Positions 18,410-46,793 of a stretch of 64,000 nucleotides of DNA are shown piece after piece. Every line of letters starts with the position of its first letter. Position 1 is the stretch's first letter. The position numbers were made by a program, and so were the translations under genes. Location of the stretch: positions 1,736,001 through 1,800,000 of the forward strand of contig NZ_CP108381.1 of assembly GCF_035956715.1 (NCBI RefSeq), read 5' to 3'. Under the pieces are notes generated by a model. It ran no database searches. It was not told the DNA's origin and was given only the letters and a program-made list of their open reading frames with translations. This DNA is from Nocardia sp. NBC_01329. Lineage in GTDB: Bacteria > Actinomycetota > Actinomycetes > Mycobacteriales > Mycobacteriaceae.

Positions 18410-19363
18410 TCACGAGCTGAGGTTCGAACGGATCGCGAGGGCATTGTCCACCGTCTTCGCGGGTGTGCTGATGGCGGGATGCCCGTCCTCGATATCCCAC
18501 AGCACGTTCTGTAGCAGTCGAGCGAGCGTCCATCCGGCCGCTCGGCCACGGTCGAGGCCGAGCATCTCGGTGAGGATGTCGAAGCGTCGTCGCACGATGC
18601 GTGGCGCGTCGGTGACGGTCTCGTCGGTGCTCCACCCGCTGTCCAGAGCGGGCCAGAGGTCGAACCCGGGATCGCCGACGAGTGGCTCCGGGTCGATCGC
18701 CAGCCACGGTTCACGGTCGGCGGCGAGGACATTGCCATAGTGCAGATCCCAGTGCAGCAGGCTATTTCCGGGATCGGCTCCGAGCTCGGCGACTATATGC
18801 GCCCATCGATCGAGTCGAGCCCGGTCGTCACTCTCGAGGACCCGCATAGCCGCGGGGATGTCGTCGACCATCGCAGAGAGGGCCTTCGAGAGATGGGGAA
18901 GCCCGCCGGGAGCGGGCACGCTGTGCAAGCGCGTCAGGAGCCCGCCGACCACACGGATCGCGTCATCGTCATCCTCGACGGCTTCGAGGGTGCGATCGCC
19001 GTTGAGACGTTCGAGCAGCATTCCACCCCGGTCGGGGTCGCTGTCCAGGAGCCGAACCGTCCCACGGCCGTTCCATTGGACGAGACCGAGGATCGCGGCC
19101 GTGGTCTCGGCGCGCGGCAACTGCAACTTCAGCGCTGCACGCGTCCCATCGGCGCGGCGCACCGGCACGACAACCCCCGCATCCCCCGACCGGATCGCAC
19201 CTTCGGGTTGGAGCTCCCACCTTCGAAGGAGATCGCGAGCGACCGTCGGCAACATACTCAGCCATTCGCGAGTCGCTTCATCGCCGGTCTCGAAAGTGCT
19301 GAGGACCCCGGTCGGAATGACGAACTGTAGATCTCGGTCCGTCATCGACAGTTCACTCTCCAC
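18410..19363 (-). CDS. Aminoglycoside/hydroxyurea kinase family protein (APH(6)-like)
   Basis: A 317-residue kinase of the streptomycin 6-phosphotransferase family. The Brenner catalytic loop HWDLHYGN lies near residue 205 and the metal-binding IDPEPLVGDPGFDLWP near 218-232; a nucleotide-binding lysine is in RAALKLQLP near 74. Family members phosphorylate streptomycin or related sugars, but many chromosomal homologues have unknown substrates, so resistance should not be assumed. The start is a GTG at 19363; an ATG at 19345 with GAGAG upstream is an equally good choice. It is convergent with the flavin monooxygenase and not part of that operon. Confidence 0.85.
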   Translation of the reverse strand: MESELSMTDRDLQFVIPTGVLSTFETGDEATREWLSMLPTVARDLLRRWELQPEGAIRSGDAGVVVPVRRADGTRAALKLQLPRAETTAAILGLVQWNGRGTVRLLDSDPDRGGMLLERLNGDRTLEAVEDDDDAIRVVGGLLTRLHSVPAPGGLPHLSKALSAMVDDIPAAMRVLESDDRARLDRWAHIVAELGADPGNSLLHWDLHYGNVLAADREPWLAIDPEPLVGDPGFDLWPALDSGWSTDETVTDAPRIVRRRFDILTEMLGLDRGRAAGWTLARLLQNVLWDIEDGHPAISTPAKTVDNALAIRSNLSS

Positions 19364-25132: not shown

Positions 25133-25612
25133 TCACCGGGAGCTCTCGTCGGCGCAGAGGAGAGCTCTGTTGCGTTCGGGTATTTCTGGAGGCAGAGACT
25201 CTACGAGTCGCTCGACCGTCACGGAACGCAGGCTGTCCCGCCAGGCATCACGTGCCGAGTCCATTACCGAGGCCAGTGTGCATCGCTCACGGCACTCCTC
25301 CGGCGGGCTCGCGCCGCGCCCCTGCTGACGGATCTCTCGGCACTGGTATGGGTCGCCTCCGCCGTCGATGGCTTCGACGATATCGAGGACGGTGATCTTC
25401 GAGGCCGGCCGCCCGAGACGAAAGCCGCCGCGTGCTCCCGGCGCACCCGCCAGGACCCCCGCCCTGACAAGTCGTGCCAGCTGCTTTGCGAGATAGGCGG
25501 GTGGAAGTGCGAAGTGCTCAGCGAGCTGAGCGGTACTCACAGCCTCGCCGGGCAGTTGGGCAAGCAGCGTTGTGCAGTGCAACACCCACTCCGTGCTCTC
25601 CGGCAGCTTCAT
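25133..25612 (-). CDS. Rrf2-family transcriptional regulator
   Basis: A 159-residue Rrf2-type winged-helix regulator. The start at 25612 (MKLPESTEWVLHC) matches the family's usual N-terminus; the longer form beginning at 25633 is less likely. The recognition region is LAEHFALPPAYLAKQLARLV near residues 32-51 and the wing APGARGGFRLGRP near 60-72. Three cysteines in QCREI...EECRERC (about 91-113) match the Fe-S-binding spacing of IscR/NsrR-like members, so a cluster or redox thiols may sense NO or oxidants. It faces the NmrA-like gene at 25715, its probable target. Confidence 0.85.
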   Translation of the reverse strand: MKLPESTEWVLHCTTLLAQLPGEAVSTAQLAEHFALPPAYLAKQLARLVRAGVLAGAPGARGGFRLGRPASKITVLDIVEAIDGGGDPYQCREIRQQGRGASPPEECRERCTLASVMDSARDAWRDSLRSVTVERLVESLPPEIPERNRALLCADESSR

Positions 25613-35268: not shown

Positions 35269-35751
35269 CTACCTCAGCTCTGCGAGTCGGCTTCGGGTCA
35301 GTTCGGGTGTATCGGGATCGAGCTTTTCGACATCGGTCTTGATGTCACCGATGGTCCGGTCGGCCAGCGTCCGGCGCCACGCCAGATCCGCTTGCCGCAT
35401 CGCCTGTGAGACAAGGCATTCCTTGCGGTAGTCGATATCCTTACGGGCACCTGGCCTGCTCTTCATCAACTGCTGGCATCGGAACGCCTCCTGCGCGCCT
35501 TCGATCGCGGTCACGACATCGAGCAGTGAGATCGTGTCAGGGTCGCGCGCCAACCGGAATCCGCCGCGCGGCCCCGAGGTCGAGGTGAGAATCCCCGCGC
35601 GAACCAGCGCCTGCAACTGTTTGTTCAGGTATGCCGCAGGCAGGGCGAAGAAGGCGGCGAGCTGAGCCGCTGAAACCGCCTCCGCCGGCTCGACCCAAGC
35701 GAGGTTGAGGCAACTGTGGATCGCCCACTCGACACCTTCGCTCATCTGCAT
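35269..35751 (-). CDS. Rrf2-family transcriptional regulator
   Basis: A 160-residue Rrf2 regulator. The start at 35751 (MQMSEGVEWAIHSCL) fits the family; ATG 35745 is equally possible. The HTH is LAAFFALPAAYLNKQLQALV near residues 31-50 and the wing SGPRGGFRLARD near 60-71. Two cysteines (FRCQQ near 91 and KECLV near 110) remain of the usual three. The gene has a perfect 33-bp inverted repeat over its start, so auto-regulation is very likely. The AhpD-like gene downstream is the probable co-target. It is a paralogue of the regulator at 25133. Confidence 0.87.
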   Translation of the reverse strand: MQMSEGVEWAIHSCLNLAWVEPAEAVSAAQLAAFFALPAAYLNKQLQALVRAGILTSTSGPRGGFRLARDPDTISLLDVVTAIEGAQEAFRCQQLMKSRPGARKDIDYRKECLVSQAMRQADLAWRRTLADRTIGDIKTDVEKLDPDTPELTRSRLAELR

Positions 35752-35780
35752 ATCCTGGATGTTACACATCCAGGATATGC
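35748..35780. promoter_or_regulatory. Perfect inverted repeat, Rrf2 operator
   Basis: GCATATCCTGGATGT and its exact complement ACATCCAGGATATGC (15-base arms) flank a 3-base spacer. The site covers the start of the Rrf2 gene. The length and perfection make chance unlikely; binding by this Rrf2 protein is inferred. Confidence 0.8.
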
Positions 35781-35867: not shown

Positions 35868-37214
35868 TCACCTGATCGCGGGTGGGATATTGCGGTTTCC
35901 GCGCAGGAGGTTGGTGGGGTCGTAGATCTGTTTGAGCGCTGTCAGGCGTTCGTATCCGGGGCCGTAGGCACTGGCTGTGCGGTGGTCCTCGTCGTCGTCG
36001 AGGTAGTTGGCGTAGCAGGCCTCCATCGCCAGTGGTCCCAGGTGCTTGCTGAGCTCTCTGGTCCAGACCTTGTGGGTGTCATCGTGTTCGGGCTCGGTCC
36101 ATCCGGCGATGGCCAGGAAGGAATACCGGGCATCGCGGCCGTGGAAGGAGGTGGCGTCCGGGCTCACCGTGGCGATGGCGCCGCCGAGATGTTCGAGGAA
36201 GATTCCGGTGAGGGGCGCGGTGATCCGTTCGCCCTGGTCGAGGATCAATTCGATGACCTCATCAGTCAGCTCGTCCAGGTAGTGGCTGCGGAGGTGGTAA
36301 CGGGGGCCGTACGGCGTGCTGGTGTTGTGCAGGGCGTGCAACTCGATGGCACTGGCTTCGTGGAAAGCATCGCGCCACGGCAGGCCGAGTCCGGTGAGCG
36401 GCTCGAGTGCGCGTTCGGCGTCGGCGCGGGCACCGTTGAAGCAGACACCGATGCTGGCGGTGCGGGTCCCGTCGGGATTGACCTTGTAGTAGAAGTCCGT
36501 GACGAGTTCGCTCGGTGCGGTCGCGGTGATCTGCCGATAGGTGCGCAGGACCTCCCGCGCCTGCGTTACCGGGTAGGCAACAACCCCGACGGTGACTCGC
36601 GGGACGGTGTGCATGCGGAGAGTGAGGGAGGTGACCACGCCGAAGTTGGCGCCGGCGCCGCGCACGGCCCACAACAGATCCGGATCGGTGTGTTGGTTGA
36701 CGGTGCGATGTGTCCCGTCCGGGGTCACCATGTCGACCTCGATGATGTTGTCGCATCCGGTCCCGCAACTGCGCATCAACAACCCGTATCCGCCGTGCAG
36801 CGAAAAACCGGCTACCCCGACGGAGGCGGATGCGGCGCCGGTGGTGGCCAGCCCGTACGGATGAGCCGCGGCCGCCAGCTCACCCCACTGGACGCCGGCC
36901 CCGACCCGGGCGATCTTCCCGACAGGGTCGATCGTGACCTCGCGCATTCGAGCGGTGGACAACACGATGCCGCCGTCGGGGACAGATCTGCCCGCGACAT
37001 CGTGTCCGGCCCCCGCGACCGCGAAGGGCAAGTCCGCCTCGTGGGCGTATTCGAGCACCCGCTGGACGTCGGGCACATCCGCACACCGGAAGATCAGCGC
37101 CGGCTGCCGGTCGATGCCCTTCCAGATGACTCGGGCGGCGTCATAGTCCTCGTTACCGGGTCTCAGGACCTGGCCGTGGAACTCGGCCAGCACTTTTTCC
37201 AAGTTGGCGGACAT
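35868..37214 (-). CDS. FAD-linked oxidase, berberine-bridge (BBE-like) family
   Basis: A 448-residue vanillyl-alcohol-oxidase-fold flavoenzyme. The N-terminal FAD domain has GAGHDVAGRS near residue 67, whose His is the usual covalent FAD attachment; the second (Cys) attachment of bicovalent members is not obvious in GGYGLLMRSCGTGCDN. The C-terminal BBE segment is YANYLDDDED followed by YERLTALKQIYDPTNLLRGN. The start at 37214 is preferred because AGGAGA lies 6 bases upstream. Family reactions are oxidations of alcohols, amines or C-C bond formation in natural-product pathways. It is the last gene of the tryptophan-dioxygenase operon. Confidence 0.87.
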   Translation of the reverse strand: MSANLEKVLAEFHGQVLRPGNEDYDAARVIWKGIDRQPALIFRCADVPDVQRVLEYAHEADLPFAVAGAGHDVAGRSVPDGGIVLSTARMREVTIDPVGKIARVGAGVQWGELAAAAHPYGLATTGAASASVGVAGFSLHGGYGLLMRSCGTGCDNIIEVDMVTPDGTHRTVNQHTDPDLLWAVRGAGANFGVVTSLTLRMHTVPRVTVGVVAYPVTQAREVLRTYRQITATAPSELVTDFYYKVNPDGTRTASIGVCFNGARADAERALEPLTGLGLPWRDAFHEASAIELHALHNTSTPYGPRYHLRSHYLDELTDEVIELILDQGERITAPLTGIFLEHLGGAIATVSPDATSFHGRDARYSFLAIAGWTEPEHDDTHKVWTRELSKHLGPLAMEACYANYLDDDEDHRTASAYGPGYERLTALKQIYDPTNLLRGNRNIPPAIR

Positions 37215-37286
37215 GCACATTCTCCTGTTGCGGTAGCGGGTCGAGGCGCTGATGGCTCGGGTCGGCCGACCCGATAATGGTGGGTG

Positions 37287-38651
37287 TCAGATGAGCGGCC
37301 AGACATCCGACTGCTGCTCGGGGAACAACAGGGGGAGCAGCACACTGCCGCGAGTGGTTTGCAGGCGGCAGTCGGGGAAGGCCCGGGCCAGCTCGGCCCA
37401 GGTGGCGTGGCCGAAGATCAGCTGGTGGAACATCTGCTCGGGCAGCGAGGCGTCCGATGCTCGCCGGCTGTGTCCCGCCCACGCCTCGACCGCGCTCAGC
37501 TTGCCGCTGTCGAAGGAGAGGCGGATACCGTGGCGGTAGAGGTCGAGGTGAACGTCGCCGCTGAGGGCTTCGGCCGCGGTACCGATCAGACGCTGCTCCA
37601 ATACCGGGGCGATCTCGCGGAGTAGTGCGGCCACGTCGGGTACCCGGAGGAACCAGCCGATCTCGGGCGGGCGCCGGACCAGCAGGTCGCCGAGTACATC
37701 GTAGGCGGGGTGCTCTCGGCCCAACCACAGCATGTAGCTCTCCGGGGTTCCTCGGTCGGGCAGGGTGAGCTGCCGGAGCACGCCGGCCACGACCTCGAAC
37801 CAGGAAACCTCCGGCGCCAGCTCGAAGCGAGCGATCGACACCGTCGGTTCCGGGCACGGCAGGCCGGGTAACCAGCTGGGAATGGGGAAACTGGGGGTGC
37901 CGCCGTAGCCGAGCACCAGATACCCGACCGGCCTTGCCGCCCTTTCGATGATCAGTATCTCGCTGTGGACCATGCTGCCGACGTCGCGACCGAACAGCTC
38001 ATGGCGCCACTGGGTCTCGTCGCGGACACACGCCAGTAGCCCCCTGTTCATTGCTCGGGCTTCGGTATCGATGAGGAATGCGATGTCCTCGACTGTCGCG
38101 GGCCGCGTCGTGACCGCTTCGTCGCCTTCTCGAATCGCGGGAAGGTCCCGGATGTGTCCACCGCGACCGGCCCGTTGGGTGATCGCGGGCAGCAGACCCG
38201 TATCGCTCCGAAAAGACAAGATATCGGTGATGCCCTGGATCAGGTCCCCGCGCAGCGTGCTCGTCTCGAGTAGGGCGTTCAGCTGTTCCTTCGACAGTCC
38301 GTGGCCTCGATAGTCCGGCCGGGTGGCCGCCAGCTCCATGAGGCTGACACCTAGCGGTACTCCCGCATACGACCAGGTTTGCGGGACCATCAGGAAGCTG
38401 GATACCAGCTCGCCGTGTCTGTCCTGCACCACGAGCATATCGTCGGTACCGATCGTGGGATGGCCCTTGTCGAACAGATCGCGCTGCCACTGTCCGACGG
38501 TGGCGTTCGGTGTGCCGTCCGGGGCGGCGTGCACCGAGGCCAGCAGATCACCGAGCGCGTCCCGATCTTCCGGGACGGCGTGACGCAACAGCAGACCGTC
38601 CGAGAGCATCCGGGGTAGTTGCGCCGGGGCGGGTGGTCGCTTTGCGGACAT
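37287..38651 (-). CDS. GNAT acetyltransferase, Eis-like
   Basis: A 454-residue protein with the three-part Eis/COG4552 layout: an N-terminal GNAT domain (acetyl-CoA loop YRGHGLSKEQL near residue 106, following MELAATRPD), a central degenerate GNAT domain, and a C-terminal SCP2-like domain (GDVHLDLYRHGIRLSFDSGKLSAVEAW). The ATG at 38651 follows GGAGGAA. Eis-type enzymes acetylate amines on aminoglycosides and other polyamines. Here, inside an oxidative operon, acetylation of an amine in the pathway product or resistance to it is plausible. Confidence 0.8.
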   Translation of the reverse strand: MSAKRPPAPAQLPRMLSDGLLLRHAVPEDRDALGDLLASVHAAPDGTPNATVGQWQRDLFDKGHPTIGTDDMLVVQDRHGELVSSFLMVPQTWSYAGVPLGVSLMELAATRPDYRGHGLSKEQLNALLETSTLRGDLIQGITDILSFRSDTGLLPAITQRAGRGGHIRDLPAIREGDEAVTTRPATVEDIAFLIDTEARAMNRGLLACVRDETQWRHELFGRDVGSMVHSEILIIERAARPVGYLVLGYGGTPSFPIPSWLPGLPCPEPTVSIARFELAPEVSWFEVVAGVLRQLTLPDRGTPESYMLWLGREHPAYDVLGDLLVRRPPEIGWFLRVPDVAALLREIAPVLEQRLIGTAAEALSGDVHLDLYRHGIRLSFDSGKLSAVEAWAGHSRRASDASLPEQMFHQLIFGHATWAELARAFPDCRLQTTRGSVLLPLLFPEQQSDVWPLI

Positions 38652-38700
38652 GGTTCCTCCAGTGAGCTCGGGCAGTTGGTGGCCCTTTCCGATCCGCTGA

Positions 38701-39996
38701 TCAGCCGATGTGCTGGGCGGTGAGGTGCGGGCACGACAGATCCGAACCCGCACGAGCCGCCGGGTTTACAGCGGGTCGTCCCAGTGTGACCGGCAAGGTG
38801 TCGAGGCCACGGACATAGCCGCATCGGCGTTCGGGTTCATCGGCGAGCTCCATATGAGGGAACCGCCGGCTCAATTCGGCGAAGTACACCTCCAGCTCGG
38901 TCTGAGCCAGAGCGTTGCCCAGACAGACATACGCGCCGCCGCCGAAGGTCAACGGCCGCGGCCCGGACCGCCGGATATCGAATCGGTCCGGATCCTCGAA
39001 CACTTGCGGATCCCGGTTGGCGGCGCCGAGCAACGGCGCGATCACCGAGCCGCCGGGAACAGCGACGTCACCGATCTGTACCGGCTGGTCGGTCACGCGT
39101 ATCACTCGGTGGAGCGCACAATCCCACCGCAGCGCCTCGCTGACCGCGCCTGCCACCAGCGATGGATCATTGCGGAGCAGGTCGTACTGGTCGCGGTCGG
39201 CCAACAGCGCGGAGGTGCCGGTGCCGATGGTCAGGGTGGTGGTTTCGAAACCGGCCGTGAACAGGAGGATGACAAGGCTGAGCAGTTCCTCTTCGGTGAG
39301 CCGGTCCCCCTCCTCGTCGCAGGCGGCGAGCAGGCCGGAGGCCAGGTCGTCGGCCGGGTGATCACGGCGATACCGGAGCAGTTCGGTGAAATAGTCGCGC
39401 ACCTCCACCATCGCGGCATTCGCACGTGCCAGGGTGGAATCGTCGACCACCAGATCCATCACCCGCAGAATGTCCCCGAAAACCCACCGGAACCTGGGCA
39501 GATCGGTATCCGGTACGCCGACCAGAGACGCGATGACCGCAACCGGCAGCCGGAACCCGACTACATCCTGGAGATCCACCACGGCGTTGTCCGCGCCGTG
39601 CTCTTCGAGTGTGTCGAGCAGCCCGGCGACCACCTGCTGTATCGCCGGCACCAGAGATTCCACCCGGCGCCGGGTGAATGCCCTGTTCACCAGTCGCCGG
39701 ATCCGGGCATGACTCGAATGCCCCTCGAACGGCAGGCTGGTGAAACACCAGACGGCCGCCGGATGCTCCTGCCACCCGGGCATGATGCGGTCGTGCCATG
39801 CGTGATCGGGCACGCGCACATCCGGACTGCTCAGCGCCCGGTGGCAGTCCTCATAGCGGCTGATCAGGTACATGTCCATGGAATCGTCGAAGAACACCGG
39901 CGCGGCGTCGCGGAGTTGGGCGTAGGCCGGGAACGGGTCTGCGGGCGCGCCGGCGAGCGTGCGGACCGCTGCGGCCGCCTTATCCAGGTCGGACAT
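38701..39996 (-). CDS. Cytochrome P450 (canonical)
   Basis: A 431-residue bacterial P450. The I-helix oxygen motif is LFTAGFETTTL near residue 243, ExxR is EALR near 287, and the haem loop is FGGGAYVCLGNALAQ near 350-364. The protein has a 20-25 residue tail after the usual C-terminus (ending in ARAGSDLSCPHLT), which may be an extension. All catalytic signatures are present. Electron-donor genes (ferredoxin, reductase) are not nearby. It sits between the amidohydrolase and acetyltransferase genes with short gaps. Confidence 0.92.
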   Translation of the reverse strand: MSDLDKAAAAVRTLAGAPADPFPAYAQLRDAAPVFFDDSMDMYLISRYEDCHRALSSPDVRVPDHAWHDRIMPGWQEHPAAVWCFTSLPFEGHSSHARIRRLVNRAFTRRRVESLVPAIQQVVAGLLDTLEEHGADNAVVDLQDVVGFRLPVAVIASLVGVPDTDLPRFRWVFGDILRVMDLVVDDSTLARANAAMVEVRDYFTELLRYRRDHPADDLASGLLAACDEEGDRLTEEELLSLVILLFTAGFETTTLTIGTGTSALLADRDQYDLLRNDPSLVAGAVSEALRWDCALHRVIRVTDQPVQIGDVAVPGGSVIAPLLGAANRDPQVFEDPDRFDIRRSGPRPLTFGGGAYVCLGNALAQTELEVYFAELSRRFPHMELADEPERRCGYVRGLDTLPVTLGRPAVNPAARAGSDLSCPHLTAQHIG

Positions 39997-40089
39997 CAGA
40001 ACCTCTCAACATCTGAGCAGATAGGTAACACGAACTGCGAAGGGTATGAGCCGAAGGGGTCGACCGGCCCGCCACAGATGAGGTAGACG

Positions 40090-41136
40090 TCAGCCCCCTC
40101 CGTCCGAGTCGGTGACGTTCTGCCCACCCTTCAAGACGGCGCCCGCCTGCCCGAGGACGGCGGGGTTCGCGATCGGATCACCGGGCACGACGCTCACGTC
40201 CGCGGGTGCACCGGGCCGCAACGGCGCTCCGGTGATCGCGTCCAGCACCTCGGTCGGGCTCAGCCCGGCTTCGGTGAGCGCGGCGATCTCGCGGGTGTTC
40301 ACGCCGAGCGGCAGCGGGCCGTTGCCGAGATCTGTCCCGTACCGCACCACACCTCCGGCACTGTGGAAACGGCGCAGGTTCTGTAGGGCGATCTCACGGT
40401 CCGGGGAGGGTTCGCCCCAGCCGTGGATGTCGATCGTAGAGATGATCGTTGTGTCGCGGGCCAGGTCTGCGATGAGCCGGTCGTCGAGGATTTCGGTCCA
40501 CGGCGTGTGGGCGAGTACTCGCACCCCCGCCAGCTGGGCTCGCCGCGTCTGGCCGGAGCCCTGTGTATGCGCGGTGACCGGAATACCGTGGGCGTCCGCC
40601 GCGCGGACGATTGCGTGCAGGGTGGCGTCGTCGACAACCGGACCGGCCTGGGAATTGAGTGTGATCTTGATGGTGGCCGGGCGATGAGCGACCAGCGCTT
40701 CGACCGCCCGTCGGGCGGCCGCCGGATCGTCGACTTCGATGGCGACCAGCGGTGGTGCCCACGGCTGCCGGGAAGGATAACCGCCGGGGGCGGTGAGGAA
40801 CGGTCCAGCGGCATGAATACGGGGGAGGCCGGGATCATGCCGGGCGCGCTCGACCAGCGGCCAGATCTCGGCGGGGGCCCAGCCCAGATCCATGACAGTC
40901 GTCACGCCCGCCGCCAGCAGTTTTTCCGGCTGGATCAGTGCGGCGTGCACGTGATAGTCGATGAGCCCGGGCAGCAGCACCCCCTCGATGTGCTCGCGGT
41001 GCGTGGCGTCCGGGGCAGCCGGGAGCGGCCCGATCCAGCCGATCTCGCCTTCGCGCACGCCGATGGCCGTGGGACCGGCGAGTTCTCGCCCGCCCAGCCA
41101 CGCCGCGTCGGCGGTGAGGAGGCAGTCAAATATCAT
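40090..41136 (-). CDS. Amidohydrolase (imidazolonepropionase-like)
   Basis: A 348-residue metal-dependent hydrolase. Expected ligands are visible: IDYHVHAAL near residues 59-67 (HxH), the lysine in ATIKITLN near 158, VTAHTQGS near 190, LAHTPW near 213, and YGTDLGN near 273. It overlaps the tryptophan 2,3-dioxygenase gene by 11 bases, which suggests a role on its product, possibly as N-formylkynurenine amidohydrolase, although known kynurenine formamidases belong to other families. Alternative substrates include hydantoin-like or lactam compounds. Confidence 0.82.
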   Translation of the reverse strand: MIFDCLLTADAAWLGGRELAGPTAIGVREGEIGWIGPLPAAPDATHREHIEGVLLPGLIDYHVHAALIQPEKLLAAGVTTVMDLGWAPAEIWPLVERARHDPGLPRIHAAGPFLTAPGGYPSRQPWAPPLVAIEVDDPAAARRAVEALVAHRPATIKITLNSQAGPVVDDATLHAIVRAADAHGIPVTAHTQGSGQTRRAQLAGVRVLAHTPWTEILDDRLIADLARDTTIISTIDIHGWGEPSPDREIALQNLRRFHSAGGVVRYGTDLGNGPLPLGVNTREIAALTEAGLSPTEVLDAITGAPLRPGAPADVSVVPGDPIANPAVLGQAGAVLKGGQNVTDSDGGG

Positions 41137-41890
41137 GCGGCTTCACCAATTCGGGAAAGTACAGCGCGTCGATGGTCCCGCTGAGATATCCGGCACCTGA
41201 GGTTCCGCCGGTGCCCGGCTGGTCGGCGAGGTGTTTTCGCACGATCTCGAGATGCCGCAGCCGCCATTCCCGCAGATATGCGTCGATGCCCGCGAGCTGT
41301 TCGCAGATCTCGTATTCGACGCCGTGATGTCCGGCGGCATAGATGCCCTGGAAGATACCGACCAATTCCGGCGTGGTGTCGCGGCTTCGGCACCGATCCC
41401 CTTCGAGGAACCGCTTCGGCACCGGATGACCCCGCCGGTGCAGGTAACCGATCAGCTCATCGAACAGGCTCGGGCCGGTGGCGTACTCCGGCGCGAGATC
41501 CCGCCAGGCGGGATGCCGTCTCCCGAGCAGGAACTCCAACGCCCGATACTGTTCGGAATACATGCCGGACGCAGGACCGAGAAGCGGCCGGATCCGATGG
41601 AACGCGGCGGGTGTCAAGGTGTCCAGAATCAGCCATTGGTTGTTCAGCAGTAGCAGTATCTGCTGTGTTCGCGCCAGCTTGGGCACCACCGGCTCGTCCT
41701 TGCTGAACGCCTCCCGCGCCGCGGTCAGTTCGTGTAACAGGAGCTTGAACCACAGTTCGGTGGCCTGATGGAAGATGATGAACAGCATTTCGTCGTGCTC
41801 TTCGGGCTCGGTGCGCACCCGCTGCGCATCGAGTATCCGATCCAGGTTCAGGTACTCCAGATAGGCTGACCTGCCCTGGTCTCTGCTCAT
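41126..41890 (-). CDS. kynA: Tryptophan 2,3-dioxygenase family haem protein
   Basis: A 254-residue haem dioxygenase of the TDO family, slightly shorter than typical (about 280). The distal histidine lies in FIIFHQATELWFKLLLHEL near residue 41, the substrate-carboxylate arginine in EQYRALEFLLG near 116, the proximal His in WRLRHLEIVRKHL near 219, and the GTGGTSGAGYL loop near 232. The usual SGFQS before the arginine reads SGMYS, so substrate preference could differ from L-tryptophan; TDO-like enzymes acting on other indoles are known in antibiotic pathways. It is first in the operon. No other kynurenine-pathway gene is nearby, which argues against simple catabolism. Confidence 0.88.
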   Translation of the reverse strand: MSRDQGRSAYLEYLNLDRILDAQRVRTEPEEHDEMLFIIFHQATELWFKLLLHELTAAREAFSKDEPVVPKLARTQQILLLLNNQWLILDTLTPAAFHRIRPLLGPASGMYSEQYRALEFLLGRRHPAWRDLAPEYATGPSLFDELIGYLHRRGHPVPKRFLEGDRCRSRDTTPELVGIFQGIYAAGHHGVEYEICEQLAGIDAYLREWRLRHLEIVRKHLADQPGTGGTSGAGYLSGTIDALYFPELVKPHDI

Positions 41891-42775
41891 GAATTGCTCC
41901 GCTCATCTGGTCGGGTGCCGCCTCGCGCCCAGGCATGACGAGCTTCGCCGTCGAGGCGAGCCGAACACAGTCCGAGGTTGTGCCGTCGCCTACCGGACGA
42001 GATCGTCGGCGCGCACTGCTCGGTATTTGACACAGTCGTGAATTTAGCGTGCGAAACTCGGACGGAACGGATGCAAAACTTCCCATGGTTGGGCATTGAT
42101 GCGTCCGTATCGAGGCCGGAATCGATCGAGAGCTCGAACCCGGATGTGAGCCAGTCGGATACGGCTGCCGAGGCTACCCGAACCGGTCCCCGACCTGGTC
42201 TGCGACGGAGATGCAACCGATACGCGGGGTCCATGATCGCCCGCGCGACTCCGCCGCCGATACCTGATGGGCCTTTTTTGCGCGAGGCCGGTGCAGCCAC
42301 CGTGCCGGTCGGGTGTCGGGTGCCGGGTGCCGGGTACTCGGTTCTCCGGAATCCGGTCATCCAAGGGGCGACGGAGTCGCCGGTCCGAAAACCGCCCTAT
42401 CGCTAATTTGGCGGAAATGTGACATACAAAAACATTCTCGAGGGCGTACGGGTTCCCGTATCGAGGCGAGATCGCTCGCACGGGCGGCCGGATGGCGCGG
42501 GCTCCGGGTCGGCGCGGATCCTCGGCGAGCGGAATCCGTTGCAGAAATGCGGAATTGGGAAGCCGTTGCCGCGCAACAGCCTGGCCTGCGCTTCTGGGTA
42601 TCCTGCCCCGCTCGCCGGCCGGCCCGCAGGTGTCGGTGCGCCGCGCGGTGGTCGATCGCACTACTCTCACGCTTGCGGCCGATCCGTCACACCAATACTG
42701 TTCCGACACAGGAGATGTCCCATATCGGACAACTTCTCGGATCTGTTGTTGTTGCTTTCATTGGAGTTCCAGGCA
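41891..42775. other. Long divergent intergenic region of the tryptophan/P450/radical-SAM locus
   Basis: 885 bases separate the TDO operon (minus) from the CYP157-like gene (plus). I find no convincing gene; the open frame reaching back to 42419 lacks protein character before about 42776. The region contains a four-copy 7-bp repeat at 42310-42337 and AT-rich patches near 42020-42060 and 42395-42440 that could hold promoters for both directions. Such a long control region is unusual in this compact window. Confidence 0.45.
42310..42337 (+). repeat. 7-bp tandem repeat, four copies
   Basis: Four adjacent units: CGGGTGT, CGGGTGC, CGGGTGC and CGGGTAC. It lies in the long intergenic region upstream of the CYP157-like gene. 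No function is evident. Confidence 0.6.
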
Positions 42776-44038
42776 TTGACCAAGTCCCTACCGTCGCCCC
42801 GAACCGGCACCGCCGAATGCCCGTACTCCGCGCCCGGCCGGACCGATGTCCCGTCTCGGGATGCTCTGTACACCGAGGAGTATGCAGCCGATCCGCATCG
42901 TGTCTTCGCCTGGATGCGTAGTCGGCACCAGACGCTGGCGCCGGTGGAGCTGGCCCCTGGCATTCCGGCTACTTTGGTGATCGGGTATAATACCGCGATT
43001 CGGATCTTCAATGACCCCGAGCACTTTCCGGCCGACGCGCGTTCGTGGGAGAAGACCGTTCCTGCCGACCATCCACTCATGCCCATGATGGCCTGGCGTC
43101 CCAACGTGATGCGCAGCACCGGAACGGAACATGCCCGCTACCGGCAGGCGATCACATCTGCCCTCGATGGGGTCGATCTGTTCTCCATGCACCAGAATAT
43201 CGAAGCGGTTGCCGCTCCGCTGATCAACGACTTCTGCATGAACGGCGAAGCCGAGATCATCGGCCAGTACGCTTTCCCGCTGACCTTCCAGGTGCTCAAC
43301 GCCATGCTGGGTTGCCCACCGGGTCTCGGGCAGGACATTGCCGCCGGTATGGCTGCCATGTTCGAAGGCGGCGCCGCCGCCACCGACGCGGACGCCAGGA
43401 TCAACGAAGCGCTCTTGGAGCTGGTCGCGCTCAAGCGCGCCGAACCCGGCCGCGACATCACCTCTCGGCTGCTGGCCCACCCGGCGCGGCTCCAGGATTC
43501 GGAGATGGTGCACCAGTTGGCTGTGCTCTACGGGGCGGGGATCGAGCCACTGACAAACCTGACGGTCAACACCCTGCTGCTCATGATCACCGACCCCCGG
43601 TTCACCGGCACATCCGCGCCCGGTGCGGCCCCGACGACGCAGGACGCACTCAACGAATTGCTGTACACCGACCCCCCGATGGCGAACTACTGTCTCAGCT
43701 ACCCGAGGCAGCCGATCATGCTCGACGGAGTCTGGTTGCCCGCCGATCAGCCGGTAGTCATCGGCATGTCGGCCTGCAACAATGATCCGGCGATCCACTC
43801 GGGTCAGTACACCGACAACAACGCGCATCTGGCATGGGGTTCCGGTCCGCATGCCTGCCCGGCCAGGTCGATCGCCTACATGATTGCCCACAACGCGATC
43901 GATCAGTTGCTCGACGCGCTCCCCGAAATGCGGCTTGCCTGTCCGGTCGACCAACTGCGTTGGCGGCCCGGCCCTTTCCATCGTGCGCTGGCGGCGATGC
44001 CGGTGATGTTCCCGCCGTCTCCACCCCTCGGCTTTTGA
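42776..44038 (+). CDS. CYP157-like cytochrome P450 lacking the ExxR arginine
   Basis: About 420 residues from a TTG at 42776 with TTGGAG ten bases upstream; this start gives a length close to the paralogue at 61022 (414). The I-helix reads GAGIEPLTNLTVN, without the acid-Thr pair. The K-helix reads ALNELLYTDPPMANY, so the ExxR arginine is missing. The haem loop WGSGPHACPAR keeps the cysteine. As I recall, this combination is typical of the streptomycete CYP157 family, whose members sit in conservon operons. No conservon genes are here. It probably pairs with the radical SAM and second P450 genes downstream. Confidence 0.85.
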   Translation: MTKSLPSPRTGTAECPYSAPGRTDVPSRDALYTEEYAADPHRVFAWMRSRHQTLAPVELAPGIPATLVIGYNTAIRIFNDPEHFPADARSWEKTVPADHPLMPMMAWRPNVMRSTGTEHARYRQAITSALDGVDLFSMHQNIEAVAAPLINDFCMNGEAEIIGQYAFPLTFQVLNAMLGCPPGLGQDIAAGMAAMFEGGAAATDADARINEALLELVALKRAEPGRDITSRLLAHPARLQDSEMVHQLAVLYGAGIEPLTNLTVNTLLLMITDPRFTGTSAPGAAPTTQDALNELLYTDPPMANYCLSYPRQPIMLDGVWLPADQPVVIGMSACNNDPAIHSGQYTDNNAHLAWGSGPHACPARSIAYMIAHNAIDQLLDALPEMRLACPVDQLRWRPGPFHRALAAMPVMFPPSPPLGF

Positions 44039-44071
44039 TGTCGCTGTGATGTGGCCACATGCGGCTGCAGC

Positions 44072-44191
44072 ATGGATGTTTCAGATTTCGCGAGCACGCT
44101 GCGCTGCGGCCGCACGGCATGGTTGTGTACATTATTCGAATCGAATAACGTTGCGCCGGAACAAGTCCTGCGAACACCGGATGGATCGTAA
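44072..44191 (+). CDS. Speculative 39-residue peptide, possible precursor
   Basis: A short open frame directly upstream of the radical SAM gene. The peptide has an acidic start (MDVSDFAST), two cysteines and a tryptophan (LRCGRTAWLC) and a polar end (VLRTPDGS). Radical SAM/P450 neighbours and size would fit a ribosomally made peptide precursor, but no clear ribosome site precedes it and overlapping frames of similar length exist (for example 44059-44148). Treat it as a hypothesis only. Confidence 0.2.
   Translation: MDVSDFASTLRCGRTAWLCTLFESNNVAPEQVLRTPDGS
44132..44148. promoter_or_regulatory. 17-bp palindrome in the radical SAM upstream region
   Basis: TTATTCGA-A-TCGAATAA has perfect 8-base arms around one base. 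It is AT-rich and lies about 280 bases before the radical SAM start. A regulator site is possible; no candidate regulator is adjacent. Confidence 0.4.
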
Positions 44192-44310
44192 AAAACGTCA
44201 GGGATGAGGCGAGAGGATCGCGCTGTAGCCAGGTCTATTCTAGAATTGTTTGTAGCGCTAACGAGGCCAATACCATACGACCGCTCCGTATCCGCATTCT
44301 CACCCATCAT

Positions 44311-44333
44311 CTGCCGATCCGATGATTCGGCAG
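44311..44333 (+). other. Hairpin upstream of the radical SAM gene
   Basis: CTGCCGA and TCGGCAG form a 7-bp stem with a 9-base loop about 95 bases before the start codon. It could be a weak attenuator or a terminator of the upstream P450 transcript; no T-run follows. Confidence 0.3.
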
Positions 44334-44426
44334 GGCATCGGCGAGCACGTCAGTTTCTGGCATGCTCCACTCGCCGGTGACATCTAGCAACGCGCAACCT
44401 TGCCGTATCGCACCGAGGAGGATGTC

Positions 44427-45554
44427 GTGGCTCAGCCTGTTTTCCTGGACGTCAGGCCAAGTAAGGAACGCATTTTAACCCGAGCAGTCGAACTCGCGCA
44501 AGAGGATCCGGCGTTGGCCGAACGGTTGATGCGCGTGAACGACGTCGCCCGAGGTATTCGAACGGTGGAGGTCTGGGTTACCGACGCGTGTAATCTGCGG
44601 TGCAAGGGGTGCTGGTTCTTCGAACACGATATGGACAAGCAGAGCATCGAGATTCGTGATCTGGGCACGATCCGTGCGTTCGCCGAAGACCTGCGCGATT
44701 CCAAGAAGATCACCAGCACGCTGCTGATCGGCGGTGAGCCTGCGTTGGTCCTGGATCGAGTCCGTGTGTTCGCGGAGACGATTCGCAATGTCACGGTGGT
44801 GACGAACGGGACCCGGCCGATTCCGTACGACGGTCTGGAAGATCTCGCCATCGCGGTGTCCCTGTGGGGCGGCGGCCCGGTCGACGACGAGTTGCGTGGT
44901 CACGGGCCCAACGGCCGGCGGATCAGCGGGTTGTTCGGCAGAGCGCTACGCACCTATGCGGGCGACCCGCGGGCCACCTGGGTCTACACCCTCAGCGAGG
45001 CCGGGATGCCGTACCTCGAACGGACCGTCGAGGCCATCGCCGACAACGGCAACCAGATCAACTTCGGCTACTACAGCGACAACGGCACCGATCCCACCGC
45101 GCGGCTACGCAATGAAGAGCAGGTGCTCCAGGAAATGATCCGAATGCGCGAAACCTATCCCGATACCGTTCTCGGGCATCCCTATTACTTCCGCACACTG
45201 GTCACCGGCCGCACGCATTGGGGCACCTTCGGCGCGGAGACATGCCCCAGCATCAGCAACGATCACCCGGCGCACGCCCAGCGCCTGACCGAGGGGCATC
45301 CGATCGTCGGCCGCTTCAACGCGTACCGGACCGATCACAGTGTCCAGTACTGCGCCACCACCGGAGACTGCGACAACTGCCGGGACAGTCAAGCTGTGTG
45401 GAGCTGGTTGCTGGTCAATATGCATCGTTTCCTGGGCGATCGCGACCAGCTGGACACCTGGGTGACGTTGGCCGAGAACTTCTACCGCCAGTACTACTGG
45501 TCCAGCTACCATCCCGCTCGACAGGCCCCCGCCGAATCGGCTGTCGGCGCCTAG
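44427..45554 (+). CDS. Radical SAM enzyme, function unknown
   Basis: A 375-residue radical SAM protein starting at GTG 44427, six bases after GAGGAGG. The cluster-binding motif is CNLRCKGCWFF (C-x3-C-x2-C) near residues 55-65, followed by the SAM-binding GGEPAL near 103 and TNGTRP near 126. The C-terminal part has further cysteines (AETCPS near 272; YCATTGDCDNC near 310-320) that may bind an auxiliary iron-sulfur cluster. There is no B12 domain and no RiPP recognition element at the N-terminus that I can see. It is 12 bases upstream of a P450 gene. The substrate is unknown; peptide or small-molecule modification are both possible. Confidence 0.85.
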   Translation: MAQPVFLDVRPSKERILTRAVELAQEDPALAERLMRVNDVARGIRTVEVWVTDACNLRCKGCWFFEHDMDKQSIEIRDLGTIRAFAEDLRDSKKITSTLLIGGEPALVLDRVRVFAETIRNVTVVTNGTRPIPYDGLEDLAIAVSLWGGGPVDDELRGHGPNGRRISGLFGRALRTYAGDPRATWVYTLSEAGMPYLERTVEAIADNGNQINFGYYSDNGTDPTARLRNEEQVLQEMIRMRETYPDTVLGHPYYFRTLVTGRTHWGTFGAETCPSISNDHPAHAQRLTEGHPIVGRFNAYRTDHSVQYCATTGDCDNCRDSQAVWSWLLVNMHRFLGDRDQLDTWVTLAENFYRQYYWSSYHPARQAPAESAVGA

Positions 45555-45566
45555 CGACAACCGACC

Positions 45567-46793
45567 ATGACAACAATGTCTCTGGAGAAGGCGCGGCTCT
45601 TCTCGGATGTCCTTCGTGGTGACCCGGGCGCCCGGATCCTCTGGGCGCGGCCGGGGGCCGACCGGCATCGGCAATACGAGAAGGTCCGCGCTCGCGGGGC
45701 CCTGGCCACCAGCCGCCGCGGCCTGCTGTTCACCGCCTCCCATGCCCTCAGCCACCAGGTGCTCACCAGCAGCGACTTCGGCCCGGCGCCCATCGGTGCG
45801 TCGGCCCGCCGGCGTAACGCGACCGGCGACACCACTCTCGTACATCCGGTCGACGACTCCTTTCTGAAGCTGGAACCACCCCGGCATACGGAGCTACGCT
45901 CTCTCGTCGCTCCCACATTCCACCGGCGCGAACTCGCCGATCTCGGGCCCCGGATCGAGAAGATCGTCGAACACCGCCTGAACGAGCTTCCACGCGGTCA
46001 GGTCACCGATTTGATCACCAACTATGCCGAAGCCGTGCCCATGGCGATGATCTCTCATATTCTCGGCCTACCGGATACGGAGGCGCCGCGTTTCGCTGCC
46101 TGGGGAAATGTGCTCGCCTCGCTGCTGGACGGCGCCAGAACAGCGCAGGAACGGCAGCGTTCCCGTGCTCTCGTCACGGAGATGACGGCGTATTTCAGGG
46201 ATCGCCTGAACCACGTCGACCAGGAGAAAACCGGGCTCATCGCCGGTTTGGCGCGGCAATGCCCGGCACGGTCGACCCCGCGCGAGGCAATCGCCACCTG
46301 CGGCATGCTGCTGGTCGGCGGTTTCGGCACCACCACCCACCTCCTCGGGAACACCCTGCACACACTGCTGCGGCGACCCCACCTCCGGCCGGCCGACGGC
46401 GATTACACGGCGGTGATCGAAGAATCCCTGCGCTACGACACCCCCGTCCAGTACGTCGTCCGGGTCGCCAAGACCGATACTCGGCTCGCCGGTCGGGCCA
46501 TCACCGCGGGTACGCCGATAGTGCTTCTGCTTGCCGCCGCGAATCGTGATCCGGAGATTTTCACCGAACCACATCTATTCGACCCCCGACGCCGGGAACC
46601 TCATCGCCACCTCACCTTCGGTGCCGGGATCCACTTCTGTATCGGCGCCGCGCTGGCCCGCGCGGAGGCGGCCATCGCCGTCCAACGCTTCTTCGAAAGG
46701 TATCCGGACGCCCACATCGCGGGAAAGCCCGATCTCCTGCATTCCCGCGCGCTTCACGGTTTGCGCCGACTGCCTGTCGTCCTCGGGACCTGA
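45567..46793 (+). CDS. Cytochrome P450 with altered I-helix
   Basis: A 408-residue P450. ExxR is intact (EESLRYD near residue 288) and the haem loop is FGAGIHFCIGAALAR near 350-364. In the I-helix the acid of the usual AGxET is replaced: LLVGGFGTTTHLLGN, so Gly precedes Thr-Thr. Loss of this acid changes proton delivery and is seen in P450s with special chemistry. It follows the radical SAM gene by 12 bases and is surely co-transcribed with it. Confidence 0.9.
   Translation: MTTMSLEKARLFSDVLRGDPGARILWARPGADRHRQYEKVRARGALATSRRGLLFTASHALSHQVLTSSDFGPAPIGASARRRNATGDTTLVHPVDDSFLKLEPPRHTELRSLVAPTFHRRELADLGPRIEKIVEHRLNELPRGQVTDLITNYAEAVPMAMISHILGLPDTEAPRFAAWGNVLASLLDGARTAQERQRSRALVTEMTAYFRDRLNHVDQEKTGLIAGLARQCPARSTPREAIATCGMLLVGGFGTTTHLLGNTLHTLLRRPHLRPADGDYTAVIEESLRYDTPVQYVVRVAKTDTRLAGRAITAGTPIVLLLAAANRDPEIFTEPHLFDPRRREPHRHLTFGAGIHFCIGAALARAEAAIAVQRFFERYPDAHIAGKPDLLHSRALHGLRRLPVVLGT

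Follow-up and report, generated by a model that had tools for sequence, protein, structure and literature searches.

A 64,000-nucleotide stretch of Nocardia sp. NBC_01329 (contig NZ_CP108381.1, positions 1,736,001 to 1,800,000; called the window below) carries eight open reading frames at its positions 35868-46793, which raise the question whether a tryptophan 2,3-dioxygenase (TDO)-like enzyme and a radical S-adenosylmethionine (SAM) enzyme encoded there serve one pathway or two. The minus-strand half comprises genes for the TDO-like enzyme, an amidohydrolase, a cytochrome P450 (P450a), a GNAT acetyltransferase and a BBE-like oxidase, and the plus-strand half genes for P450b, the radical SAM enzyme and P450c. 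The original prediction had joined both halves into one divergent tryptophan-derived pathway. We are highly confident that the eight genes are two separate cassettes lying side by side in the window genome (6.42 Mb). With moderate confidence we favour the following overall picture: the TDO operon stands on its own and likely leads to a kynurenine-type product that is acylated and oxidised, and the P450-radical SAM-P450 cassette is predicted to act on another substrate, probably of the acyl type, and to remodel it. All eight reading frames were found at the predicted coordinates and their family names were confirmed by Pfam (TDO, amidohydrolase, P450, GNAT, FAD_binding_4 plus BBE, radical SAM); what is corrected is a false pathway, in which two cassettes had been read as one.

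We searched 150 genomes of the genus for the TDO and for the radical SAM protein. Some TDO match was present in 53 genomes, and six held the subfamily of the window TDO at 57-100% identity (the window genome G000, G061, G117, G121, G115 and G146). Of the 28 genomes with a match to the radical SAM enzyme, 17 reach 89-100% identity, two others 58% and 49%, and nine match weakly. Apart from the window's own there are 16 close radical SAM genes, and for 15 of them (loci L041-L055) surroundings of 20 kb (15 kb in one case) were fetched; the cassette of G107, a 3 kb locus on a short contig, stands outside the neighbourhood check and the P450 counts, which cover 16 of the 17 cassette genomes. P450b, the radical SAM gene and P450c follow each other in the same order in all 15 fetched relatives. 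None of these 15 stretches contained a TDO match, and BBE-like matches in L043 and L044 reached 27-28% only. The complete five-gene operon TDO-amidohydrolase-P450a-GNAT-BBE was detected in two other Nocardia genomes, G061 and G117 (loci L058 and L059), and both keep the halves apart: in G117 operon and cassette lie at 3.76 and 0.83 Mb, 2.9 Mb from each other, and in G061 they are on different contigs (C20 and C3). Adjacent halves occur in the window only, that is in one of the six TDO-subfamily genomes and in one of the 16 cassette genomes examined. The TDO subfamily is absent from 14 of the 17 cassette genomes and the cassette from three of the six subfamily genomes. By common neighbours the 16 cassettes sort, in our reading of the gene clusters, into about eight neighbourhoods with no flanking gene common to all.

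The gap between the halves, 885 bases if P450b starts at TTG 42776, had been interpreted as a shared control region. In blastn comparisons its TDO-side part (41861..42107, strand not assigned) is common to the DNA upstream of the TDO gene of G061 (Nocardia grenadensis; L058/L003) at 62.7%, and the first 82 bases of it match DNA upstream of the G121 TDO gene (L060) at 73.5%. The P450b-side part (42360..42775, strand not assigned) is common to the stand-alone radical SAM cassettes: the stretch 42360-42799, or the right part of it, matches all 15 cassette loci at 69-85%, with match starts ranging from 42360 to 42672. No blastn match crosses 42108-42359. Since no match spans both ends of the intergenic region, each of the two operons carries its promoter region along with it; a shared divergent promoter is ruled out, and the region represents a seam between two separately conserved upstream regions. 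Two details speak less clearly for this on the TDO side, namely the weakness of the match to G061 and the position of a weaker L059 match to 42005-42097, some 300-400 bases upstream of the TDO gene of that locus. L059 also contains, far from its TDO gene, a second copy-like stretch (19033-19173, 67.8%, opposite orientation) of window 41956-42096. One divergent pathway of all eight genes under shared control could be defended by the adjacent and divergent arrangement in the window and by the presence of the cassette in every genome with the five-gene operon. However, the other two genomes that hold both cassettes keep them non-adjacent, most cassette genomes lack the TDO subfamily, half of the subfamily genomes lack the cassette, and the intergenic region is a seam, so that we give this reading hardly any credence.

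The original prediction had itself stated that a lack of co-occurrence in related genomes would refute it. As neighbours the halves do not co-occur; in the same genome they do, above chance for independent draws, and this bears on a looser connection, in which cassettes lying far apart in most genomes would cooperate in trans, their products meeting in one pathway in strains with the five-gene operon. The radical SAM cassette is present in each of the three genomes that carry this operon, namely the window genome, G061 and G117 (probability 0.0012), and across the whole TDO subfamily in three of six genomes versus 0.68 expected (p 0.02); both figures, which weigh against complete separation, treat the genomes as independent draws, and in fact they are not. 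The three cassettes are not each other's closest, neither in the DNA ranking nor in the radical SAM tree: among 15 cassettes ranked by DNA similarity to that of the window, the G117 cassette comes first and the G061 cassette 7th. The co-occurrence is therefore not obviously explained by a close common origin of the cassettes, and cooperation in trans is kept as an explanation, albeit an unlikely one given that the three genomes may just be related and that 14 genomes keep the cassette without the TDO subfamily.

Taken as a system of its own, the minus-strand operon begins with the TDO-like dioxygenase (41126..41890, minus strand, 254 amino acids). It passes Pfam PF03301 with 161.3 bits (gathering score 34.9) and reaches 217.1 bits, below the cut-off of 390.7, for the NCBIfam equivalog TIGR03036, for which the five other subfamily members score 226.7-256 bits and the ordinary Nocardia TDOs L063 and L064 are also below the cut-off (368.5 and 377.4). 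The closest solved structures are bacterial TDOs, the best being 2nw7, which we take to be the Xanthomonas enzyme; for the latter we assumed an active-site list, with the respective roles, of Y24, Y27, F51, H55, Y113, R117, L120, H240 and T254. Eight of these nine positions, heme ligand included, are as in other TDOs, and the one that differs is F97, at the position of Xanthomonas Tyr113. The 11 close TDOs (P0121-P0131), which are 50-100% identical, all have phenylalanine there, whereas 109 of the 111 other TDOs compared have tyrosine, P0137 and P0175 having phenylalanine; the comparison comprised the best 120 of 1696 matches plus L063 and L064. Five further positions set the subfamily apart. 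Judged by these residues, the window TDO is a member of a small subfamily with one changed active-site residue, for which a search of the open-access literature on the role of Tyr113 found nothing. Plasmid relatives of the subfamily were discarded as candidates, all 127 plasmid records with a match being below 60% identity.

The TDO gene overlaps that of the amidohydrolase by 11 bases, and the remaining gaps of the operon measure 93, 49 and 66 bases. The amidohydrolase (40090..41136, minus strand, 348 amino acids; PF01979) has its closest solved relatives among the arginine carboxypeptidase/prolidase type, and H62, H64, K157, H190, H210 and D269, which we take to be the full set of metal ligands, are kept in all five sequences compared; we propose it as the N-formylkynurenine deformylase. 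P450a (38701..39996, minus strand; PF00067) matches the best solved P450 with 227 bits, TamI and CYP107A1 being the nearest named ones, and has EALR and FGGGAYVCLG in its translation. For the GNAT protein (37287..38651, minus strand; PF13527) no useful solved relative was found by sequence. Its structure model (predicted local distance difference test 90.3) has the two-GNAT-domain fold of the Eis type, with 4my3 and then Eis2 as best Foldseek matches (E 6.2e-20, template modelling score 0.62/0.71). The BBE-like FAD oxidase (35868..37220, minus strand; FAD_binding_4 and BBE) has EncM as closest solved relative with 272-274 bits over 443 residues.

The GNAT gene is the marker of this operon. At E 1e-20 or better it occurs in five of 148 genomes of the genus, all five of which hold the TDO subfamily, and in a sample of 397 genomes of the order only distant relatives at 30-32% were found besides the window's own. 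Window, G061 and G117 have the version TDO, amidohydrolase, P450, GNAT and BBE; G115 has amidohydrolase, TDO, CcbF-like aminotransferase, amidase, class III aminotransferase and GNAT, and G146 the same without the amidohydrolase. These sister operons thus carry two aminotransferases and an amidase where the window operon has P450 and flavoenzyme. We assume that the TDO would open the indole ring of tryptophan, or of a relative, to N-formylkynurenine, that the amidohydrolase would strip the formyl group to give kynurenine, that the Eis-fold GNAT would acylate an amino group and that P450a and the EncM-like flavoenzyme would oxidise the product. This kynurenine route, to which we give nearly even credence, is suggested by the enzyme families and by mycemycin biosynthesis. 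There an amidohydrolase linked to a TDO has been proposed to deformylate N-formylkynurenine, and mycemycins A and B are lost when it is deleted (PMC5867642).

The operon might instead serve tryptophan catabolism, with tailoring genes adjacent by chance. The mostly kept TDO active site, an amidohydrolase that could be a formamidase and the TDO-kynureninase-PaaX-like set of another Nocardia, G009, would be in agreement with this. However, the window genome has no second TDO, and its best kynureninase match scores 24.2 bits at a cut-off of 246.4; five of the six TDO-subfamily genomes hold nothing above 33 bits (best 22.8-32.2). The sixth, G146, has a kynureninase of 273 bits that adjoins its other TDO on contig C245, away from the subfamily TDO, so that a separate TDO-kynureninase pair exists there besides it. 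The original prediction had described an uncharacterised operon around TDO resembling specialised metabolism, and this description holds, as no kynureninase lies beside the TDO or above the cut-off in the genome; a kynurenine pathway encoded elsewhere in the window genome was rejected because neither kynureninase nor KynB scores above the cut-off. Among five control genomes with an ordinary TDO, G009 and G044 have kynureninase matches that narrowly miss the cut-off (236 and 230 bits). The other three, G142, G013 and G141, are also without kynureninase, and since some ordinary-TDO Nocardia lack the enzyme, its absence alone is weak evidence for biosynthesis. As to a formamidase of the KynB type, the window genome has four Cyclase-family genes, the best of which scores 34.3 for TIGR03035 (KynB); the cut-off of 223.05 is reached in none of the 11 genomes compared and by no control. 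With the TDO subfamily tied to the GNAT, we regard catabolism as very unlikely. Besides the three control genomes, it counts against our preferred biosynthetic reading that GNAT relatives at 51-65% occur in other actinomycetes (large protein database), with the gene context there not visible, that G121 holds amidohydrolase, TDO and an aminotransferase fragment only, and that the chemistry of all enzymes is deduced from sequence and context.

Compared with known systems, the operon resembles the mycemycin genes mymC and mymD in that a TDO gene that is not part of plain catabolism lies next to the gene of a hydrolase, for which deformylation of N-formylkynurenine is proposed (PMC5867642). In contrast to mycemycin, the window operon has no kynureninase, carrier-protein or halogenase gene alongside and has an Eis-fold GNAT, a P450 and an EncM-like oxidase (aminotransferases and an amidase in the sister operons); its TDO belongs to the Phe97 subfamily, and MymD has 513 amino acids versus 348 for the protein here, a comparison by length and not by sequence. 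The G009 set (L063) shares the TDO fold and most active-site residues, but its TDO is 41-43% identical, has tyrosine at the Phe97 position and is adjoined by a PaaX-like gene and by one resembling kynureninase (236.5 bits, cut-off 246.4). In its predicted two-GNAT fold the window acetyltransferase agrees with Eis, Eis2 and 4my3. It differs in that identity to them is 12-17%, no solved protein is found by sequence, and within Nocardia the gene goes together with the TDO operon. A Nocardia TDO operon of this kind was not found in the open-access literature on TDO gene clusters; a TDO subfamily with one altered active-site residue and tied to an Eis-fold acyltransferase is the first of two leads.

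The second lead is the radical SAM enzyme (44427..45554, plus strand), of a family for which no description was found in the open-access literature and whose partner switches cleanly from a diiron protein to a P450. It passes PF04055 (33.1 bits, cut-off 29.5), and its likely start, by eye, is GTG 44427 after GAGGAGG. The CX3CX2C cysteines C55, C59 and C62 are invariant in 61 aligned sequences (the window's and 60 of the best 120 of 548 matches), as are C273, C309, C315 and C318, extra cysteines for a predicted further 4Fe-4S cluster (SPASM/twitch-like). No useful solved relative was found by sequence, and folds of the SkfB, BlsE and viperin type are 10-20% identical, the auxiliary-cluster spacing of the window enzyme being its own. 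P450c (45567..46793, plus strand; PF00067, with ESLR and FGAGIHFCIG) follows after 12 bases. It stands beside the radical SAM gene in all 18 loci examined of one clade, and a PaaA-like diiron protein in all 17 copies of the other; the tree, drawn without seven of 15 near-identical Nocardia cassette sequences, places a single partner change on a branch with support 100/98. The searches for PaaA-like, acyl carrier protein (ACP) and short-chain dehydrogenase/reductase (SDR) genes covered L056, L057, L074, L090-L093, L099, L100 and L111-L119. For L041-L055, where the tblastn queries were the proteins of the window, it is the gene order P450b-radical SAM-P450c that speaks against a PaaA-like gene beside the radical SAM gene, and for the window it is this order together with the family scans of its genes.

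The sister pairs of radical SAM and PaaA-like protein (L057, L074, L090-L093, L099, L100, L112-L119) lie mostly in carrier-protein clusters and resemble the cassette in a homologous radical SAM enzyme (42-51% identity) beside an oxygen-activating metalloenzyme; the window differs by P450c in place of the diiron protein, by the extra P450b of Nocardia and in that no ACP or SDR was seen alongside. ACP and an enoyl-reductase-like SDR lie beside 14 of the 17 sister copies, which leads to our tentative guess of an acyl-type substrate. In the proposed mechanism the radical SAM enzyme would turn the substrate into a carbon-centred radical and P450c, standing in for the diiron protein of the sister clade, would oxidise the same scaffold, with P450b an accessory gained in Nocardia. 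It is conceivable, although doubtful, that radical SAM enzyme and oxygen-activating metalloenzyme form a module and jointly carry out a single C-H functionalisation in aerobic cells, that a heme P450 took the place of the diiron protein on one branch, and that the module became a free-standing, wandering three-gene cassette in Nocardia. If the pairing is functional, it makes a simple comparison possible of the ways in which radical SAM chemistry and oxygen-dependent chemistry work together on the same substrate. These proposals are tempered by the identity of 42-51% to the relatives on which the acyl guess is based, by the fact that no ACP, nonribosomal peptide synthetase (NRPS) or polyketide synthase (PKS) was seen beside the Nocardia cassette, by the lack of an ACP match in L100 and one L119 copy and annotated ACP genes 6-8 kb away in L099, and by several long branches in the tree (L100, L099, one L119 copy). 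Nothing was found in the open-access literature on pairings of radical SAM enzymes with CYP157 or PaaA-like proteins. Bisenarsan was considered as a match and rejected; its arsenic pathway with an EPSP synthase does not fit (PMC12159101).

P450b (42776..44038, plus strand) scores 20.4 in Pfam (cut-off 22.8) and 99.6 bits against a solved P450. The heme-cysteine motif GxGPHxCPA is kept in 16 of 16 sequences, and the K-helix motif ExxR is missing, with ELLY at the site in 15 of 16 by pattern (in L044 the pattern fell on another site). We take this absence to be a CYP157 trait and P450b, as labelled in the original prediction, presumably to be of CYP157 type. Its frame is open upstream to 42419 in the window, but in the alignment of 16 sequences indels disrupt it ahead of TTG 42776, so that this codon is most likely the start. 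In five of the 16 sequences, the window not included, an upstream ATG is in frame with P450b. In seven an ATG there opens a similar peptide frame; the other nine are the five just mentioned, L042 with a shifted frame, L048 and L055 with a stop at codon 3, and L049, which has no ATG. A universally conserved leader or precursor peptide upstream of P450b is ruled out by this count. Between P450b and the radical SAM gene lies a spacer of 388 bases (44039..44426) with conserved blocks, in which no conserved short reading frame was seen by eye in the 16 sequences. One block holds a palindrome, TAGCGCTA in eight sequences and TGGCGCTAA in the other eight, possibly an operator.

Could the three genes nevertheless modify a very short ribosomally synthesised and post-translationally modified peptide (RiPP)? 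The radical SAM model resembles the RiPP maturases SkfB and ChlB, conserved DNA directly precedes P450b and also occurs in the spacer, seven of 16 sequences share the peptide frame, and biarylitides reportedly show that precursors can be tiny (PMC12951456). However, the frame is lost in nine of 16, the spacer has no conserved frame (the search covered the vicinity of the cassette only), and the sister clade stands mostly beside carrier-protein genes. We consider a RiPP system rather improbable.

Some observations concern relatives and surroundings. Plasmid relatives of the radical SAM enzyme were not retained: all 15 records are below 60% identity. The surroundings of two were viewed, and radical SAM plus PaaA-like pairs lie there on plasmids of Burkholderia stagnalis (L099, 14321-16170) and Alteromonas macleodii (L100, 14162-16517), the latter with a MaoC gene alongside and near Tn3 transposase and recombinase genes. 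An EPSP synthase-AMP-ligase fusion occurs near sister radical SAM genes in L090 (5203-8154, Pfam), with tblastn homologues in L091, L092 and L093. The predicted lack of NRPS, PKS and kynureninase genes was borne out among the ten proteins family-scanned, the rest of the window, except for one more P450, being read by eye from codon-usage gene calls. No Rfam match at gathering score and no tRNA was detected in the window. It contains a second CYP157-type P450 (61022-62233, minus strand) with a weak Pfam score of 18.5 bits, the start of which resembles that of P450b by eye, and two Rrf2-like regulators (25133-25612 and 35269-35769, minus strand) with similar starts, likewise by eye.

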